Source: Punctularia strigosozonata HHB-11173 SS5 (Eukaryota > Basidiomycota > Agaricomycetes > Corticiales > Punctulariaceae). From it: a stretch of 64,000 nucleotides of DNA. This document shows positions 9,974 to 55,502 of the stretch, one piece after another. The notes beneath the pieces are model-generated. The model saw only the letters and a program-made list of their open reading frames with translations. It was not told the origin of the DNA and did not search any database. The stretch's first letter is position 1. Every line of letters starts with the position of its first letter. The stretch covers positions 1,347,946-1,411,945 of the forward strand of contig NW_006767437.1 of NCBI RefSeq assembly GCF_000264995.1. Reading direction: 5' to 3'. The position numbers and the translations under genes are program-made.

Positions 9974-10005
9974 TCTGGAAGGGGGGGTCGACCCCCCCTT
10001 CCAGA
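9974..10005. repeat. Perfect 32-bp palindrome with G7/C7 arms
   Basis: TCTGGAAGGGGGGGTC is followed directly by its exact reverse complement, giving a 32-bp palindrome with no spacer. The centre is GTCGAC. It could extrude as a cruciform or be the junction of two head-to-head copies. No transposase or target duplication is visible beside it. Confidence 0.9.
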
Positions 10006-11262: not shown

Positions 11263-13628
11263 ATGTCGTCGCGCAGCGCCAGCGTCAGCGTCGAGAAGGG
11301 TCCGCATTCGCCTTTCCACGAAGGCGTCCACTTTGGGAAGGTCCATGAACTCCTGTTCATCATCGTCATAAGCTGTGAGTAAACTTGCGAGAAAAGCCGT
11401 TTTGCGAACACGAGAACTTGATCTGAATTCCGATTTTTTTTGAATAGGTGCACAACTGGTAAGACGGAACCGAGCAGCTGCGCAATAGAAACCGCCCGAT
11501 TTGACGCACGCGACAAGTTCACTCAGGCCAGCCTCGGTCAGGTCGTCGTACCGCTGGAGATCATCGCCAAGTCTTTGGGCACGACCGACCCCGCTCAAGA
11601 GTCATGGACGATCGCCGCGTACTCGCTCACCGTCGGCACGTTCGTCCTGCCAGCCGGCAGGCTGGGCGACATGTACGGGCACAAGAGGGTCCTGCTCGTC
11701 GCCTACGTCTGGTTCGCGCTGTGGTCCCTCGTCGCCGGGTTCTCCGTGTACGCGCGGTCGGTGATCATGTTCGACGTCTGTCGGGCCATGACGGCGGGCA
11801 CCATGGCGAGGCACGCGATGGCCTCGGTCCAGAACGACCACGGCCACCACGCGAACTGCGCGAACAGGCTAGCGAATACCGCTGGGCCACGGGGGGGGGG
11901 GGGTTGATGGTCAACACGCAACAGGAAAAAAAAGGGACCCGGCGCACAAGCGCTCACCTCCGACCAGAAATCCGTTGGGCGCGGCGGCGGCGAAGACGGC
12001 GAACGCGTAGTTCTTGCGCGGTCCGGGTACGTACGTCCGCCCGAGGATGGCGACGCTGTTGACCAAGATGGCCGCGGGCGCGATGCCCTGCTACTTCGTC
12101 ATCCCCGCGGACGATATCCTGGACGCCCCCGACCCCGAAACGGACGGCGGCGCGTCGACCTCGTCCGGTGCGTCATCGGCGCCCTCCGACGAAAGTACGG
12201 CGGGTCCTCGGTTCGACTGGCTGGGCGCGGTCCTCGGCATCGGCGGCCTCGTGCTCGTCAACTTTGCGTGGAACCAGGCGCCGATCGTGGGCTGGCGAAC
12301 GCCGTACGCGTACGCGCTTCTCGTCGTCGGCGTCGCGCTCGTGTGCGCGTTCCTGGTCGTCGAAGGGCGCGTGCACGGCGCGCTCGTACCGACGACGATA
12401 TGGAATCGCCATATCAGCATGATGCTGGCGTGCATGTGAGTTTTTTTTTCCACGAATTTTTTTGGCACCGGCTTCCCGAGAGACTGGAAGGGGGACTCAC
12501 CGTGGTTTTTTTTCCGTCTCGTTTCGGTTCATCAGTGTGTTAGGCTGGGCTACATTCGTGAGCGGTCGTTTTAGCCGCGGCAATGTCACCGCGTTATCTT
12601 CGTTCTTCATGCCGTATCTTCTTTGTCGCGTAGGGAATCTGGAACTTCTACGGCACCCGGTTCTACATACAGATGCGAGGGTACACGCCGCTCGGAGCCG
12701 TCGCGTCCTTCACGCCGGTCGCCGTCGCGGGGGCGATAGCGACGGCCTTGACCGGCTTCCTTCTACCAATGTGCGTATATGCCTTTGTCGCACGCACGCA
12801 CACACTCACTCTTGTCGCGTTTTTCCTGTTACAGTATCGGTCCGTCGCTGCTCATGGTGGTCGCCCTTACCGCGTTCTGCGTCGCTACCGTTCTGTTCGC
12901 GATCGCCCCGGTGCATCAGACGTACTGGGCTCTGACGTTCGTGAGCACCATCATCGCGCCGTAAGCGATCCGTTCACCACGCGAGGCCGTGTCGCCCACC
13001 CGCTCACTTGTTTTTTGGGCCAGATTCGGCCAGGATATGAGGCAAGGATCGCCTGCTTCAATCGTCTCCGAGTCTGGCATATATGTTGACGAGGATCGTA
13101 TGGCAGTTTTCCGGCGGCTTCACTCGTCGCGAGCAATTCCGTTCATCGACATCAACGTGAGCTCATCTCAGCTTCTTATGATCACGAAGGCGCGTTGTTC
13201 ACGATATATACCTTGATCCGACCCCCGAGAACAGAGGGAATGTACGTGTCGCGGTCTTACTACTACTCCTCGGCGTCCCCCCGTAAACTGGCCCGTTGAC
13301 CGGTATGTTGTGCAGCGCCGCCAGCCTCGTCAACACCTTCGTGAACTACTCGGTCTCGCTCGGGCTGGGCTTCGCGGGCACGGTGGAGACGCAGCTGAAC
13401 CGGGGCGGGCGGACGAAGGCGGACGTGCTGCGCGGATATCGGTCCGCGTTCTACCTCGGGATCGGGTTCTCGTCGCTCGGGATCGGCGTCGCCCTGCTCA
13501 ACCTGGCGCTGGACTACCGCGCGGACAGGAGGGGCGCGCACGGATTCGACCCGGGATCGGCGCGGGAAAAGCGGCGCGGGGAGGAGGAGGGCGCACCGCA
13601 CCACGCCGGCGACGGAGCTCGCGCGTAG
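11263..13628 (+). CDS. MFS drug:H+ antiporter-like transporter (DHA2 type) with an internal inversion
   Basis: Multi-spanning membrane exporter of the fungal aminotriazole/DHA2 group. Exon 1 (11263-11374) starts MSSRSASVSVEKG and ends KVHELLFIIVIS. An 11-nt micro-exon (11448-11458) joins it to exon 3 at 11518 (FTQASLGQVVVPLEIIAKSL), then AAYSLTVGTFVLPAGRLGDM and YGHKR, the family's motif-A loop. Bases 11791-12090 read correctly only on the opposite strand. After them YFVIPADD and WLGAVLGIGGLVLVNFAWNQ resume. Later exons are 12536-12557, 12634-12770, 12835-12960, 13024-13041, 13107-13156, a 7-nt exon 13235-13241, and 13316-13628. The intron at 13042-13106 has a GC donor (AG|GCAAGG). The join over the 7-nt exon reads HRHQ-QGIAASLVNTFVNY, as in relatives. 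As presented, the inverted block disrupts the protein. Confidence 0.8.
11791..12090 (-). other. 300-bp inverted segment inside the MFS gene
   Basis: On the plus strand this block has no MFS-like frame. On the minus strand it encodes QGIAPAAILVNSVAILGRTY, then VPGPRKNYAFAVFAAAAPNG and FLVG. A GTGAGC..CCCAG intron follows, then VFASLFAQFAWWPWSFWTEA and IACLAMVPAV. These are exactly the residues missing between CRAM (ending 11790) and YFVIPADD (from 12091). A flip of 11791-12090 keeps the frame at both joins. The 13-G run at 11891-11903 lies in the inverted intron. Confidence 0.85.
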
Positions 13629-14026: not shown

Positions 14027-15816
14027 ATGGACAGGAAAGCGCGCCACTCGTCGGAGCGCCCGCCGCCGCCGAGCTCGGACTGTGGCACAGAAGAGACGGC
14101 GGATAACGAGAGCGACGATGGCGCGCACCAGGGCCCCGGCGCCCCACCCCCGACGCCGATCCCAAAGCTGCAGCTCGCCTGCCTCGCCCTCGTCCTCCTC
14201 GCCGAGCAGACCGCGTTCAACTCCGTCGGCCCGTACCTCCCCGCCCTCCTCCTCTCCCTTCCCGGCGTCGAGCCGGCCGACGTCGGCTTTTACGCGGGCG
14301 CCCTCAGCACCGCGTTCGCCGTCGCCCAGCTCCTCACCAACTTCTTCTGGGGCTGGGCGAGCGACCGCGTCGGGCGCAAGCCCGTGCTCCTCCTCGGTAC
14401 CGCGCTCACGGCGGCGGGCTTCGTCGCGTTCGGCATGTGCGGATCGGTGGGCGCGGCGATCGCGGTGCAGGCAGCCATGGGCGCCGTCAACGGCAACGGC
14501 GGTGCGTTATCTCTCTCTCTCTATACATCTTACCTACCCCGCCTGACATGCACCCGCGATAGGCGTCGTGAACACGATCATGGGCGAGATCACCGACGCC
14601 TCGAACCAGAGCCGCTCGTTCCAGTATCTCCCCGTCGTCTACGGCGCCGGCGGTCTCCTCGGCCCGCTCATCGGCGGCGCCCTCGCTCGCACCGCGCGCC
14701 CGCTCTCGTCCTCGCCGCTCCTCGCCGCGCACCCGTTCCTCCTCCCGAACGTCGCCATCGCCGCCCTGCTCGGCCTCGACTTCCTTGTCGTCGCCTGCTT
14801 CATGCGCGAGAGCCGCCAAGGCGTGCGGCCCCTCTCCGCCCGCCTCCGCGCCCTCTTCCGCCGCCCGTCCTGCCCCAAACGCCGCCGGCTGGCCACGATC
14901 CACATCGCCCCCGGAACGGCGACGACGACGACGTCGGAACGCACCCCGCTCCTCCACCCGCGCCGCTCGCTCGCCTCTATCGCGCCCTCGCTCCTCTCCC
15001 GCGCCTCCTCCCTCTCCCTCTCCCTCCCGCCACACCGCCACAGCCCTCCGCACCCCTCCTCCACCATCCCCTTCCGCTCGCTCCTCACCTTGCCCACCCT
15101 CTCCCTCCTCGCCACCGCCCTCCTCTTCAACCTCGCCCTCACCACGCACGCCACCCTCTTCCCCCCCTTCGCCGCCCCTCCCCCCGCCCGCCGGCCGCGC
15201 CCTCTCCGCCCCCGAGATCGGCGCCGCCCTCGCCGCCTCCTCCCTCGCCGGCATGCTCCTCCAGCTCGCCGCCTTCGTCCGCATCCAAGCCGCCCTCGGC
15301 TCCATCCGCGGCGTCCGCGCCTCCCTCGCCCTCTTCGCCCTCGCCTTCCTCCTCACCCCCTTCGTCGCCTGCCGCCCCTCCCCCCCTTCCTCCCGCCACA
15401 CCAAGGCGGAGGCCCTCTTCTGGACGGAGCTCTCCGCGGTGCTCCTGTTGAGGACGGTCGGCACCGTCCTCGGCCTGACCACGCTCGCGCTCCTCATCAC
15501 CAACGCCGCGCCCTCCCGCGCCTCGCTCGGCGCGCTCAACGGCCTCGCCCAGACGCTCGCCGCCGCCGGCCGCGCCCTCGGCCCTTTCGCCGCGGGCGGG
15601 CTGTTCTCCTTCGCCACCAGCGGGGGAGGCCGAGGGATACTCGCCTGGGCGGTGCTCGCGGGCGTCGCGGTGCTTGGCGCGCTCGTGACGTTCGGGATCA
15701 GGGAGGGCAAGATCGACGTCGATGACGAGAGCGACGAAGAGGAAGAGGAGGAGGAGGAGGAAGAAGAAGAAGAGACGCGGCTTCTCGGCGACGAGGAGCA
15801 GATGAGGGCGCGGTGA
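14027..15816 (+). CDS. MFS transporter (YCR023C/TetA-like), apparent frameshift
   Basis: Membrane transporter with about twelve hydrophobic spans. The first exon has LQLACLALVLLAEQTAFNSV, GPYLPALLLSLPGVEPADVG, then FFWGWASDRVGRKPVLLLGT, which carries the MFS motif A (G-x-x-x-D-R-x-G-R-K). A GTGCGT..TAG intron near 14502-14562 precedes GVVNTIMGEITDASNQSRSF and YGAGGLLGPLIGGALA. A long Ser/Pro/Arg cytoplasmic loop follows. The frame ending THATLFPPF (about 15160) must change by one base to continue as GRALSAPEIGAALAASSLAG (from about 15200). No GT..AG intron fits there, and the stretch is C-rich. This is a real frameshift or a sequencing slip. The C-terminus carries a run of 13 Glu from a GAG/GAA repeat, then TRLLGDEEQMRAR. 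Confidence 0.82.
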
Positions 15817-19000: not shown

Positions 19001-20639
19001 NNNNNNNNNNNNNNNNNNNNNNNNNNNNNNNNNNNNNNNNNNNNNNNNNNNNNNNNNNNNNNNNNNNNNNNNNNNNNNNNNNNNNNNNNNNNNNNNNNGG
19101 GCGGGCGGGGGGGGGGGGGGGCGGAGTCAGCACTCACGTTCGATGGGGCCCGAATCGCGTTGGTATCCCGTTCGATGCCGGCGTCGTCGTCCAGATGGTT
19201 CCTTCGGTCCGCGCCTCTGGGTAGAATAATGGTAATATCTCCCGTTCGAGCTCGGAGCGCGTGACGGGGGCGGCGCACCACGCCGCGCGAAGATAGGAAG
19301 CGCATAGCGCACGGGCGGTCGGATAAGGAGGTAGATGAGAGCGGATAGTTTCGTGTAAGGTGTCGATGGACGTCGGGGGCGAGTGGGAGGGGGCGCTGAA
19401 GAAGGGGACGGAAAGGTGGAGGATGGAATGGGGGAGTGCGGGGAGAGGGTTAGCCAGTAGTTTGCTGGGTTTCGGTGGTGGGGAGGACTAGACGCGTGTC
19501 GGTTTACACGAGGATTATCTTTTCGGAATCAAGAACACGTACGAGTAGGGCCTGTGCATGGGGAGAAGCAGGAGACCGTTCATTAGCGATAGGTGGGTAG
19601 AGAGAGGAAGGGCGCTTGCATACATCCGAGCCGGCCGAACGACCATAGATGGACTTAGTGTCGTACATTCCGTAGGCCTGCGCCGCGATGGTCCCGTAGG
19701 CGCCCCCAGTGTTTTCTTCGGTCTTCATTGCTCCTGCACCTTTACTGTCCTGGGGTGCGCCACCGTCCCCGGAATGAGGCCTCGAATACGGTGATAGGGA
19801 TTGGCCTTGAAGGTGTTGAAAATGCGGGTGGTACATATGCTGGGAGTCGGCCGAACCGGGGATGGTGCCAGACGAAGCGGAGTGGAGGTCAATGGTGGAT
19901 TTTACTTTGAGGAGATCTTCGGTGAGGAGAGGGTGCGGTTCCCGCGGAGGTGGCACGCTTGAGGACGAGGCGACGGAGTACGAGGTGGCATGCGAGAGGG
20001 AGAGCGCGTCTTCGAGCTGACGGATGCGTTCTGACATTTCGGAGATTTTGCGGTGAAGGCGGTCCGTGTCGGCTGTAGTGCGATGTTATGCATATCGGAC
20101 AAACACAAGACATACGACGCATATACGGATGCGTAGACGCAGAACGGGTTTTGCGGTAGGTCAGTTGGGTGTGAATCGACCAATGCCGATCTGCACGGAC
20201 CTAAGACGAATCTAGATGTATAATTGCATGTTAGCCCGTGAGATCGGACGCCGTCTAGCGACCTGTCTTTGTTAGGACGTACCGCGTTCCGTGGCCTGTG
20301 ACGAGGCTGCCGTTCGGACATATGGACTCGCATCCTCGTCGCTTGCAATTCGAACATGGGATGGCTGCTCGGACGTGTTCCGTATCAATGATCGTGGCGC
20401 GGATCCGAGATCGACCGCGCTGCTCACCTTTATCGCACTTGAGCTTCAACCTGGACGTCCCTCAGCAATCTACAGCGAGATTTTATGGACGGCGTCGTGG
20501 CGACTCACCGCCGGCACTCTGCGCACGAGAGCGCGCCCCGAGCCCGCTTCCGCTCGGTTTCCTCCGCCCTTGCGCTCTGCTCGCGCTCGCGCACAACGCC
20601 CGGCTTTCCGCTCCCGTTGTTCGCGCCGGTGTTGGGCAT
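16099..20639 (-). CDS. Zn2Cys6 fungal-specific transcription factor (interrupted by assembly gap)
   Basis: Nuclear DNA-binding regulator. ATG 20639 opens MPNTGANNGSGKPGVVRERE, a basic stretch, then the binuclear zinc cluster split over introns: ALSCAECRRLKLKCDK and IPCSNCKRRGCESICPNGSL (six Cys). RFVLADTDRLHRKISEMSER, IRQLEDAL follows as a short coiled-coil linker. The fungal_trans middle domain is seen as GMSAKLAQSLELHRDCSRFR, SAHEAQKRRSLFWHICFTD, LATGRLPTFDLAFIDCALPD. C-terminal exons include CDLFEKVAAHKGRPAKFL, a Glu run near 16345, and TWTSFLRQLDLPPTDLAYTY, ending at 16099. The 489-N gap (18610-19098) removes one or more exons between the linker and the middle domain. Targets are unknown. 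The neighbouring MFS gene converges on it. Confidence 0.85.
18610..19098. other. Assembly gap (489 N)
   Basis: Unresolved bases flanked on both sides by G-runs (up to 14 G on the right). The gap falls inside the Zn2Cys6 gene. Its true length is not known from the sequence. Confidence 0.98.
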
Positions 20640-28928: not shown

Positions 28929-30025
28929 ATGGCATCCGTGCTAGTACCATCAAACACTGGCACTGCGCTGGGAGGTCTGGAAGGAACGCCTAGAGGCACT
29001 CAAACACACATCGGGCCTTTTGATACCTATGTTGCCCAGCCGCCCGTTCAGAAGGGGCCCGCTCCAGCAGTTGTCGTCTTTTACGATCAGTTCGGCTTTA
29101 AGGTGTTTATTCCACTAACTGCAAAGTGCTTGAGCTGACTCCGCCCTTATGTAGATCCCAAACGCAAGGCTCATATCTGACATGCTCGCCGAGAAGACTG
29201 GCTTGACCGTCTACTGCCCTGATATATTCGCCGGCGATGGCGTGTCTCCCGATGGTCACAGTGTCGTCGCTGTCGATTCGGAGAGCCACCATAGTCTCAT
29301 CGAAAAGCTTTCTGGTTCGTGAGCGTTTTTCCACGACTGCGATGGCCATCATTGTCTGAGTGCGAGCACAGAGGGCTTCCACCATCACCCCAAGGCACAC
29401 GCCAGCCTGATAACCGACTTTTTGACCGTGTTAAAGCATGAACATGGCCGACTGGCTGCGATCGGGTACGTATTATTCTACCCTGCGATTGTCCCCAGGA
29501 TATGCTGATGACAGGATGATGCAGGTATGGCTGTGGTGGAAAGCATGCCGTGCACTTTATCAGCAGCGGAGTGGCTCAGCTCAAGGCTTCCGTCGTATGC
29601 CACCCCTCTCACGTCTCCTTCGATGATATCTCTCAGATCGAAGAACCTGTCTCATTCGTTTGTGCCGAGCACGATCATGCATTCGACAAGGCTACACGGT
29701 CCGTGCATTCACCTCGAACAGAGGTTTCAGCTGACTCGATGCCCGTGCACTATGGTTTAGAGAGAATGCAGAACAATTCCTCGTCGTCGATCAGCACAAG
29801 GATCATCCGGGCGGCTTCAGTCCTGGGGTCACATCTGCATCCCCCCAAGATGGGCGCCCAGCGGTAAGGCTCAGCAAGGACTTCGAGGCGCAGTTTGTGG
29901 TGTACCCTGGCACTGTGCACGGCTTCGCGATCCGGCCGGACCTAAGCAATCCCGAGACGCGCAAAGCATTCGAAGGCGCATTAGATCAGAGCGTTGCATT
30001 CCTGAAGAAGCATCTTCAGGTCTGA
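28929..30025 (+). CDS. Dienelactone hydrolase family protein, copy 1
   Basis: Alpha/beta-hydrolase of the DLH family (Cys-Asp-His triad), probably a cytosolic ester or lactone hydrolase. ATG 28929 gives MASVLVPSNTGTALGGLEGT, then DTYVAQPPVQKGPAPAVVVF and YDQFGFK. After an intron: IPNARLISDMLAEKTGLTVY, CPDIFAGDGVSPDGHS. The nucleophile Cys is in YGCGGKHAVHF, right after an intron. The acid Asp is in AEHDHAFD and the catalytic His in YPGTVHGFAIRPDL. It ends KKHLQV, stop 30023-30025. Intron positions (before IPNA, before YGCG, after DKATR) match those of copy 2 at 42268-43407, so the two share a recent ancestor. Confidence 0.88.
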
Positions 30026-42267: not shown

Positions 42268-43407
42268 TCAATGCTTGACTTGGAGGTGCTTCGTGACGAA
42301 CGCGGCGGCCTGGTCGAGCGCGCCGTCGAACGCCTTGCGTGTCTCGGGGTCGCGCAGGTCCGGCCGGATCGCGAAGCCGTGCACGGTGCCCGGGTACACG
42401 ACGAGCTGCGCCTCAAAGCCCTTGCTGAGCGCCACCGGTGGTCGCGGTCCCTGCGGCGCCATGCTCGAAACCATCGCGTTGAAATTGTCTCGGGTGTATC
42501 CGCCGGCGTTGTTCATCTGCTGGTCGATGACAAGGAACTGGTTCACACTCTCCCTGAGTGCAAAAGCTGTCGTCAGCGCCGGGGGGGAGGGGCACTATCT
42601 ATCTGTCAAGGCAAGAAAGTACGTACCGGGCGGTCTTGTCGAATACGTGATCGTGCTCGGCCCAGACGAATGAAACTGCCTCCGTAATCTGCGTGATGTC
42701 GTCGAACGAGACGTGCGAGGGGTGGCATACGACCGCCGCTTTGAACTGCACAGTTTGGCTGCTGATAAAGTGGACGGCGTGCTTCGCGCCACAGCCATAT
42801 CTGTATCGACACGAACACGTAATATTTGGTGTCGGTCTGGGTGAGTGCAGTGCAGCGTATCCGATACGTACCCGACCGCGGCAAGTTGGCTGTGCTCGCG
42901 TTTGAGGGCTGTCAGGAACTCCAGTATCTGGGCGGTATGTGCCTTCGGATGATGCTCAAGGCTTTCTACGGCAATAATATCAGCTGCGCTGGATGTTGAC
43001 GCGGCAGGGATGCTGGACCGACCTGACAACTTCTTGATAATGTTACGTTGGTCCTTGATTGCGATGACGCTGTGGTCCTCCGGGGAGACGCCGTCGCCTG
43101 CGAAGATGTCAGGGCAATATACGGTCAAGCCGGTCTTCTCGGCGAGCAGATCGGATATGAGCTTCGCGTTCGGAATCTGCGGGAAAACGGGCTGTCAGTA
43201 CCTGGACGCGCTACAAATGAGCGGGCTGCTCGGGCGCACCTTGAAGCCGAACTCGTCGTAGAAAACGACGACTGCAGAAGAATTATCCTTCTGAACAGGT
43301 GGCTGAGCAACGTAGGTGTCCAGGGGGCCAACTTTCGTCTGGCTGCCTCTGGGTGTACCTTCAAGGCTACCTGCAGCAGGGTATGAGGGAATGATTTCGG
43401 ACGCCAT
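42268..43407 (-). CDS. Dienelactone hydrolase family protein, copy 2
   Basis: Paralogue of the enzyme at 28929-30025. ATG 43407 gives MASEIIPSYPAAGSLEGTPR, DTYVAQPPVQKDNSSAVVVF and YDEFGFK. Then IPNAKLISDLLAEKTGLTVY, CPDIFAGDGVSPEDHSVIAI. A variable middle is followed by ESLEHHPKAHTAQILEFLTA. The nucleophile exon has YGCGAKHAVHFISSQTVQF and VVCHPSHVSFDDITQITEAV, with the acid in AEHDHVFD. The last exon has VALSKGFEAQLVVYPGTVHG (catalytic His), FAIRPDLRDPETRKAFDGAL and ends HLQVKH, stop at 42268. Intron positions match copy 1. All triad residues are present, so it looks functional. The substrate is unknown. Confidence 0.87.
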
Positions 43408-48162: not shown

Positions 48163-48265
48163 GGGCCTGTAACTCAGTGGTAGAGTGCCTGCTTTGCAAT
48201 CTGTCTCCTACGGAGGGCACGGATAAGACTGCATGAAGTCCTGGGTTCAATCCCCAGCTGGTCCA
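48163..48265 (+). tRNA. tRNA-Ala(UGC) with intron, copy 1
   Basis: The cloverleaf is visible. The acceptor is GGGCCTG/CTGGTCC with discriminator A. The D arm is ACTC..GAGT and the T arm CTGGG-TTCAATC-CCCAG. The anticodon stem CCTGC/GCATG has one C-U mismatch. The loop TTTGCA places TGC at 34-36, so alanine. About 32 bases between the loop and GCATG form an intron after position 37. The CCA tail is not encoded, as usual in eukaryotes. Box A and box B sequences lie in the D and T arms. Confidence 0.88.
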
Positions 48266-48346: not shown

Positions 48347-48437
48347 GGGCCTGTAACTCAGTGGTAGAGTGCCTGCTTTGCAATCCTGTGGATGATACGA
48401 CTGCATGAAGTCCTGGGTTCAATCCCCAGCTGGTCCA
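48347..48437 (+). tRNA. tRNA-Ala(UGC) with shorter intron, copy 2
   Basis: The mature sequence is the same as copy 1, 81 bp downstream in the same direction. The intron (about 20 bases) is 12 bases shorter than in copy 1 and differs in sequence. Intron identity is the main difference between the two copies, which implies tandem duplication with purifying selection on the exons only. Confidence 0.88.
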
Positions 48438-52112: not shown

Positions 52113-53461
52113 ATGTACGACCAACGCTCGGCCTCGCGTTGCGCGATAGACCGGCTACCCACCGAACTGCTTGCACGCATTATCAAGCTCGCCGCCGCAT
52201 ATGTTCTGCGAAATTCCGCAGATCCCTTTCTTCTACAGGAGCGGGCTGAGTCTACCTTGAAGACGACGAGGCTTAGTCTGACTCGAGTCAATAAACAATG
52301 GAATGTTAGTTGACGTCTCTATATCGCGAGTCGGTGCCTCATCGAGTCTTCTGATTCACCCAGGCGATCGCAATTCCTTACCTCTTGGAAGAGATACGCA
52401 TCGGCTGCAAGCTCTCTCCAGAAACCAAACATCTGGGATACGCGCACACCGCCCGTCTCGAAAACCTCATTCGCACCTCGGAGCTTTGCCCGTCCTTGCT
52501 GAAACGCACGCGCACCATGGTGATGCTGCTCGGCTGCCGCACCGTCGCAGATCAGTGTCATGCAGGCGTCCAAATTTGTCATTTACTCTCCCGCGTCTCG
52601 CTGAGGCACTTCTCAACGGACCTGAGCTGTGAAGCACCCTGGCTATCGTTCCTCGTGTCGGGCAGTGCACAGTCCCTAACACATCTCGACATCCACATCA
52701 GCGCGCGCGCCATATCGTGCACAACCATTCCCTCCCTCAACGCTCTGACGAACCTCACGTTTCTGCGTGTGACTGAAGACAACAACCGTAACTCCTACGC
52801 AGCCTCGCTGGAGCATCCCTATCCCGAATCATTGAGCAGTCTTGCGCAACTTTGCCTCCCGCGATTAGAAGAACTGCAACTCATAATCACGAAAAGTCCC
52901 GAAGACGTGCACCCTGACGGCCACATCCCACTCCACATCGGCTTAGCGGCTAATCTGCCGTCCCTCCGCCGTCTTCATCTCTCCGAGGAACAATGGTTCG
53001 AAGAGGGGATGCTCCTGCGTTTCTTAAACGCGTTCGGAGCGAAGCTGGAGGCGCTTCACATCCAGAATGCCTTCATGCCCGACGAGCTCGAACGCATCCA
53101 CGAGCTCGCTCCCCACTTAACCGAGATCGGCTGCTACGTGCCGTTCTCGTACGAAATCGACGTCGAATTCGGCGAACGCTGCATACAACATCCGCGCGTC
53201 CAGCATCTATGCTTCTCGGGAGACGCCTGGTTCTCGGAGACCATACGGCTCATCGATCGAGCGAAACTTCCGAGTTTGATTGATGTTCGCCTCGTGGACG
53301 TTGCGTGGGCTCGCGCACGCGATCCATCGGTGTGTAAGGATAGGAGCTTTGGTTGGAAGTTGATGGAGGATATGCAGGCGGCCTCGGAACTTTCTGTCAA
53401 AGGAATACCGTGTTTCGATATGAACGGCAAAGTGTTTGGCGGCCTGGTGTCGTCAGCATAG
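52113..53461 (+). CDS. F-box-like protein, copy A
   Basis: Probable substrate adaptor of an SCF ubiquitin ligase; agaricomycetes carry many such genes. Exon 1 (52113-52304) starts MYDQRSASRCAIDRLPTELL, ARIIKLAAAYV and ends RVNKQWN, an F-box-like helix set. The GT..AG intron is 52305-52363. Exon 2 reads AIAIPYLLEEIRIGCKLSPE, then LKRTRTMVMLLGCRTVADQC, HFSTDLSCEAPWLSFLVSGS and leucine-rich segments (LEELQLIITKSPEDVHPDG). FSGDAWFSETIRLIDRAKLP lies near the end. The product is about 429 aa. It is similar throughout to copy B (54109-55502), and the intron is at the same place, so the pair is a tandem duplication. Targets are unknown. Confidence 0.82.
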
Positions 53462-54108: not shown

Positions 54109-55502
54109 ATGGCACTGGAACGAGGCTCCTGCGCGATTGGTCGGCTTCCGAATGAGTTGCTCGCCCAAGTTATCGAGCTCGCTGCTGCATACGATCTTTT
54201 GCGAGATGGAGATCCCTTCGTGCTCGCTTCGCCGACCTCCGTCCAAGTCGCAGACAAAACGAGGCGGAGCATCATGCTCGTCAACAAACGTTGGAATGCG
54301 AGTCCGATTTCTCACTGTTTGACGCATCCCAAAGCAGCTGCTAACCTCGTATTTCACAGGCGCTGGCGATGGCTCGAATCACACCTGAGATCAGGACCGG
54401 CTGGAAGACTTCGTCCAGCGACTTCCCCATGCCGTACTTCACGGGATCATTCAATGGTCCCGTCCGTGTTTCAGAGCACTCACCCCACCTGATCAAAAAG
54501 ACGCGCACCATAGTTGCATTGCTGGGCTGGAACTCTGGATCCCCAGAGGAGTGCCGAGCAGGCGTCCAGCTCTGTCATCTTCTCTCGCACCTCGCGTTGA
54601 AGCATTTTTCCACCGATCTGAGCTTTTCAGTACCTTGGCTCTCTTTCCTCGGAATGCGTAGTTCGCAGTCCTTGACACATTTGGATATTCACATCCCCCC
54701 TACCTTCATCTCCGACACCACCATCAGGCAGTTAAACTGCTTCGAGTACCTCGTGTTCCTACGCATGGTGGACGTTGGCGATTTGGAGAGCGACGAGACG
54801 GCTCCCTCACCGGAAAACCTGAAGGATTTGCCCCGGCTTTCTCTCCCTAATCTCGTGGAGATGCAGCTCGTGGTTAAAAACTTCGTTAGCGAGGGACATC
54901 CCGATGGCCCCATACCCTTCCGCATCGGTGAAATGGCTGATCTACCGTCTCTCACTCGTTTACGACTCCACGAAGATTATACGGGAGACGACACACTTCA
55001 GAACCTCCTCAAAGCCCACGGAGAAAAACTCGAAGTCCTGCATTATACCTCCGGCGCGATACCCACCGTATACGACTTCATGTCGTTCTCCCAACTCGCG
55101 CCAAACCTGACTGAATTTGGTTGCCACGTCTCGGCTTACGCTGAAGTCATCAACGGCCACGCCCCACTCATACAGCATCCCCGTATTCAACACTTGTCGA
55201 TATCTGGGCTCGGCTGGTTCACCGAGACCTTGCGCCTCATCGATCGCAAGACCCTTCCGTCTCTACTCAATATTCGTCTTTCCAACGTCGTATGGGCCGA
55301 CATCCGCGAGCGAGACGAGTTCGGAACGGATCGCATGCAACGTAAGGTGTTGGAGGAAATCGAAATCGCTGCGCGCCTCGCAATGCAGGGTATACTTGTA
55401 CTTGACAGGGTCGGCAAGCCGTTCGGTGATCTGGAGTCGGTGGTAGAACGGCGTCGAAAGCAGAAAGTAGAGTTGACCGACGGTGTAGTAACCCAACAAT
55501 AG
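54109..55502 (+). CDS. F-box-like protein, copy B, with GC-AG intron
   Basis: Tandem paralogue of 52113-53461. Exon 1 (54109-54297) is MALERGSCAIGRLPNELLAQ, VIELAAAYD and ends LVNKRWN. The intron 54298-54359 starts GCGAGT rather than GT and ends CACAG, with branch site CTGCTAACC. Exon 2 opens ALAMARITPEIRTGWKTSSS. The body has IKKTRTIVALLGWNSGSPEE, HLLSHLALKHFSTDLSFSVP, SLTHLDIHIPP and HPRIQHLSISGLGWFTETLR. It ends VELTDGVVTQQ. The predicted length is 443 aa. The intron position and phase are the same as in copy A, where the donor is GT. Confidence 0.82.

Follow-up and report, generated by a model that had tools for sequence, protein, structure and literature searches.

Micro-inversions of less than a kilobase that arise by end joining form a general class: they are short and local, lack end repeats, bring no net gain or loss of sequence, and disrupt genes. 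In the fungus Sclerotinia sclerotiorum, the portion of the MAT report used here describes a programmed inversion of 3.6 kb that is flanked by 250-bp inverted repeats and truncates a gene (PMC3574095). In mouse, the consulted portion of a preprint describes meiotic breaks that lie close together and are repaired by end joining; the products it names are deletions, duplications and insertions of excised fragments at ectopic sites, with in-place inversion not among them (PMC12918824). In the parts of the literature on fungal or end-joining micro-inversions drawn on here, no intragenic flip of the kind described below was found in a fungus.

The window analysed, a 64,000-nucleotide stretch of Punctularia strigosozonata DNA, contains a multi-exon gene of the major facilitator superfamily (MFS) within which the block 11791-12090 stands reversed. 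Like the end-joining micro-inversions, the block is short and local, has no end repeats, shows no net gain or loss, and disrupts a gene; unlike the established members, it is placed in the class from one sequence, and its origin may be natural or technical. As at Sclerotinia MAT, an inversion cuts a fungal gene short here; the differences lie in the length (300 bp against 3.6 kb) and in end similarity at chance level instead of 250-bp inverted repeats (compared with the same portion of PMC3574095). The features of the gene are as follows; its exon limits are predicted, as read from the sequence alone.

11263-13628, plus strand: whole MFS (DHA2-like) transporter gene, from start to stop codon, as given by the exon and phase chain; broken by the inverted block in its recorded state
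11527-11790, plus strand: exon part left of the block, 88 codons; MFS_1 17-93, EfpA 25-90 of 8ufe_A
11791-12090, minus strand: inverted block, 300 bp (302 bp, 11790-12091, fits equally), coding on the minus strand
11958-12090, minus strand: block coding piece 1, 133 nt (44 codons and 1 nt), open; placed by phase and by a weak match to EfpA 103-145 of 8ufe_A
11882-11957, minus strand: intron within the block, 76 nt, GT-AG
11791-11881, minus strand: block coding piece 2, 91 nt; placed by phase and by MFS_1 139-164 (E 0.14, below the cut-off)
11905-11907, plus strand: TGA, first in-frame stop when the frame of the left exon is continued into the recorded block
12091-12435, plus strand: exon part right of the block; EfpA 188-254 of 8ufe_A (E 0.064), TIGR00711 180-252 (E 0.0081), bacterial-relative profile 224-299
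13042-13106, plus strand: GC-AG intron, 65 nt, from our own exon/intron reading
13235-13241, plus strand: putative phase-preserving microexon, 7 nt, between GT-AG introns of 78 nt and 74 nt, likewise our own reading

Orientation and phase of the block

The gene comprises 1.6 kb of coding sequence and ten short introns, nine with GT-AG ends and one with GC-AG ends; so many short introns point to a fungal source, probably a basidiomycete. From position 11791 on, the recorded plus strand no longer codes for the transporter. The frame of the left exon continues for 38 codons into the recorded block before it meets the TGA at 11905, and the right exon is out of phase with the left exon in the recorded orientation. 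Owing to this stop, the recorded allele is predicted to be null; by arithmetic, its product would have 167 residues. With piece 1 and then piece 2 set between the left and right exons, the phases are unbroken and free of stops on to the stop codon, and the chain across all exons adds up to 1629 coding nucleotides, each piece having been read and searched separately. The segment is thus reversed in place, with the order and phase of its flanks kept. The preliminary description had placed a 300-bp inversion at these positions, and its coordinates prove right to 1 bp (300 or 302 bp). It had also seen an intact intron on the opposite strand of the block, which runs from 11957 to 11882, and had proposed that the restored order loses no frame, in agreement with the phase chain.

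Codon scores favour the minus-strand coding frame of the block. In that frame, piece 1 scores 0.54 and piece 2 scores 0.50 bits per codon, against -0.54 and -0.74 bits per codon for the other two minus frames of piece 1 and -0.90 to 0.30 bits per codon for six plus-strand stretches. An independent minus-strand gene is ruled out as an account of the block, since the block carries on the phase and the homology of its flanks.

No damage other than the flip was found in the phases and splice-site dinucleotides over all exons of the gene. A decayed pseudogene is likewise ruled out, the apparent damage at 13040-13315 being made up of the GC-AG intron and the 7-nt exon. A literature search did not find the phrase used for such a 7-nt microexon.

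Homology of the separate pieces

The left exon by itself assigns the gene to the major facilitator superfamily, matching positions 17-93 of Pfam MFS_1 with 42.1 bits (gathering cut-off 33.4). Its list of PDB matches (n=9) is headed by five EfpA sequences, followed by two of QacA type ('Antiseptic resistance protein'). For piece 1, PDB lists five sequences at E up to 10 (best E 0.34); all of them are EfpA, and they are the same five that stand atop the list of the left exon. EfpA also accounts for five of the nine PDB matches listed for the right exon, the other four being unrelated. On the EfpA chain 8ufe_A, the left exon (25-90), piece 1 (103-145) and the right exon (188-254) are collinear, and in this order of matches the gene resembles the DHA2-type MFS exporters EfpA, EmrB and QacA. 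The left and right exons also match the NCBIfam DHA2 entry TIGR00711 (485 positions) in order, at 23-100 and 180-252, with 27.2 and 14.9 bits for exons searched separately, the cut-off of 230.2 being that for a whole protein. Unlike these exporters, the locus is a multi-exon fungal gene, the separate pieces of which score far below whole-protein cut-offs.

The MFS_1 match of piece 2, which lies below the cut-off, begins 45 profile positions past that of the left exon, and 46 residues lie between the two in the window. Piece 2 has no match in PDB, piece 1 has none in Pfam, and neither has one in NCBIfam. The right exon does not match MFS_1; the one Pfam family listed for it is DctQ (E 0.018, below the cut-off). 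As controls for orientation, the block was also read on the plus strand, and the three resulting peptides (89, 61 and 38 residues) were compared with PDB and Pfam. They gave 0, 1 and 0 matches in PDB, where the lone match is to a phage tail protein (E 0.65). In Pfam they gave no MFS family and one chance-level match to PTS-HPr (E 0.13).

A profile of 79 bacterial relatives (from 80 loci fetched of 98 confirmed), which is too distant for judging the block, is matched by the left exon at 67-143 and by the right exon at 224-299. It sets piece 1 at 146-180, directly after the match of the left exon, with a score of about 0 bits, and does not place piece 2. In a shuffle test with 14 non-redundant bacterial relatives, the score of piece 1 is reached by 6 of 300 shuffles and that of piece 2 by 232 of 300; one plus-strand control gives 4 of 300, so that the test does not discriminate. 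For six of the 14 relatives, the best alignment pairs the first residue of piece 1 with the Q of an R-x-x-Q motif, the position expected from the RAM/Q junction; for the remaining eight, it falls elsewhere. A search of viral contigs with the left exon returned eight pattern matches and no relative.

Ends of the block and origin of the flip

Position 11790 holds a G and position 12091 its complement, C, and inverting 11790-12091 yields the identical sequence, so that the event spans either 300 or 302 bp. The ambiguity of the junctions is this 1 bp and nothing further, and at least as much is present in 44% of random blocks (4000 random 300-bp blocks over 11264-13300). Within 10 bp of the ends, the inverted word GGGCA is reached by 21.8% of random blocks; the longest inverted word within 20 bp is 6 nt (27.1% of random blocks reach it), and that within 40 bp is also 6 nt (71.5%). 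No inverted pair with one arm at each end of the block was found among the 25 listed of 35 pairs. With end similarity at chance level, the block ends bear no mark of recombination, whether homologous or site-specific. Near the ends lie two imperfect direct repeats, 11788-11805 and 12068-12085 (18 nt, 78%), which do not argue for a switch, because direct repeats favour deletion and not inversion.

The junctions are free of gap letters. Every 18-mer of 11491-12490 is unique in the window when both strands are considered, so that repeat-driven misassembly has no visible cause in the window. Nor does the window hold a paralogous donor: in tblastn, the only strong match of each piece is itself, the others having E values of 0.011 or worse. 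On the plus strand, the C-tract of the inverted intron appears as the 13-G run at 11891-11903; the length of this run may be uncertain. Lying 100 bases from the nearer end, the run cannot reverse the block and is ruled out as the cause of the flip, and the assembler error near this run that the preliminary description had offered is not supported as worded, because the run lies inside the block and off both junctions. The longest homopolymer of the window is a different one, 15 G at 19107-19121.

The reading that we prefer, with a probability of about 0.52, is a simple inversion with flush ends, 300 (or 302) bp long, in a fungal DHA2-like MFS transporter gene that otherwise looks intact; for a real event of any kind, all real readings taken together, the odds are modestly better than even. 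In the preferred reading, the transporter gene would have suffered two double-strand breaks, separated by about 300 bp, and end joining would have put the released piece back in reverse with no net loss. The event would be too recent for a second lesion to be visible, and the resulting null allele would have no built-in route for flipping back. A real inversion is supported by the EfpA collinearity, the MFS_1 spacing, the unbroken phases and the intact splice ends. If the event is real, two breaks repaired by end joining would agree with its flush ends, with the 1-bp junction ambiguity and with the chance-level similarity; as in simple micro-inversions, inverted repeats at the ends do not exceed chance. 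Since the gene carries no damage besides the flip, the flip is either very recent, or on one of two alleles only, or absent from the organism; the inverted allele may be one of the two alleles of a dikaryon. Among the three causes offered in the preliminary description, a recent inactivating micro-inversion remains the best fit, with a technical flip staying as its rival.

That rival, in which misassembly, scaffolding or later handling has flipped the block in the sequence record only and the gene of the organism is intact, we regard as a serious contender at somewhat less than even odds. A purely technical flip predicts the lack of a second lesion in the gene equally well, and it agrees with the undamaged remainder of the gene and with a flush exchange without net gain or loss. 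A block of exactly 300 bp whose zero-based offsets, 11790 and 12090, are round numbers as well is odd for a natural event and serves as a soft warning, albeit one noticed post hoc. Against a technical flip stands the lack of gap letters and of repeats of at least 18 bases at the junctions within the window, so that a misjoin by an assembler would call for chimeric molecules at each of the two ends.

It is improbable that the flip is real and stems from programmed breaks made in pairs, such as a meiotic double cut with about 300 bp between its two sites, after which the fragment was ligated back the other way round without loss; the allele would then have been caught before any decay set in, and the partner nucleus might still carry an intact allele against which it segregates. 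More doubtful still is a switchable segment, also raised in the preliminary description, which would flip back and forth to turn the transporter on and off: all bases are kept in either orientation and the gene is otherwise intact, but neither inverted repeats beyond chance nor recombinase sites are present at both ends. The GGGCA similarity is seen in 22% of random 300-bp blocks, the pairs listed (25 of 35) include none that brackets the block, and the known invertible region of a fungus that was used for comparison, Sclerotinia MAT, is flanked by inverted repeats of 250 bp in the portion of the report used (PMC3574095); with end similarity at chance level, a switch is unlikely.

Least probable of all is a double template switch in replication, copying the segment from the opposite strand, which can produce a local inversion without long repeats; most such switches involve shorter segments, and microhomology or a net gain or loss is often left behind, whereas the ends here share at most 1 bp and no net change is visible.

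Were the simple flush inversion real, it would be a clean sub-kilobase inversion and a silent gene knock-out of a kind that automatic gene calling would probably hide, readable from one sequence through protein collinearity alone. Were it technical, it would be a warning on the sequence record. Neither case requires a new mechanism.

Other features of the window

Pfam searches of 39 distinct open reading frames (ORFs) of the window matched 12 at E up to 0.001, and no domain split across strands was seen among these 12; with 621 stop-to-stop ORFs of at least 60 residues in the window, this sample is an incomplete scan for further flips. The plus-strand ORF 14547-15722, which overlaps a long minus-strand ORF, has a weak match to MFS_1 (E 0.00034, 20.1 bits, cut-off 33.4). 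Upstream of the transporter gene lies a perfect 32-bp palindrome (9974-10005), with G7 and C7 around TCGA. Rfam identifies tandem tRNA genes at 48163-48265 and 48347-48437, about 85% alike over 110 bp, whereas ARAGORN finds no tRNA at either position. Two duplications are also present, one diverged and in opposite orientation (29153-29979 and 42320-43178, about 12 kb apart, with pieces of 111-176 bp at 79-86% identity), and one direct (52562-52699 and 54558-54695, 138 bp, 73% identity).
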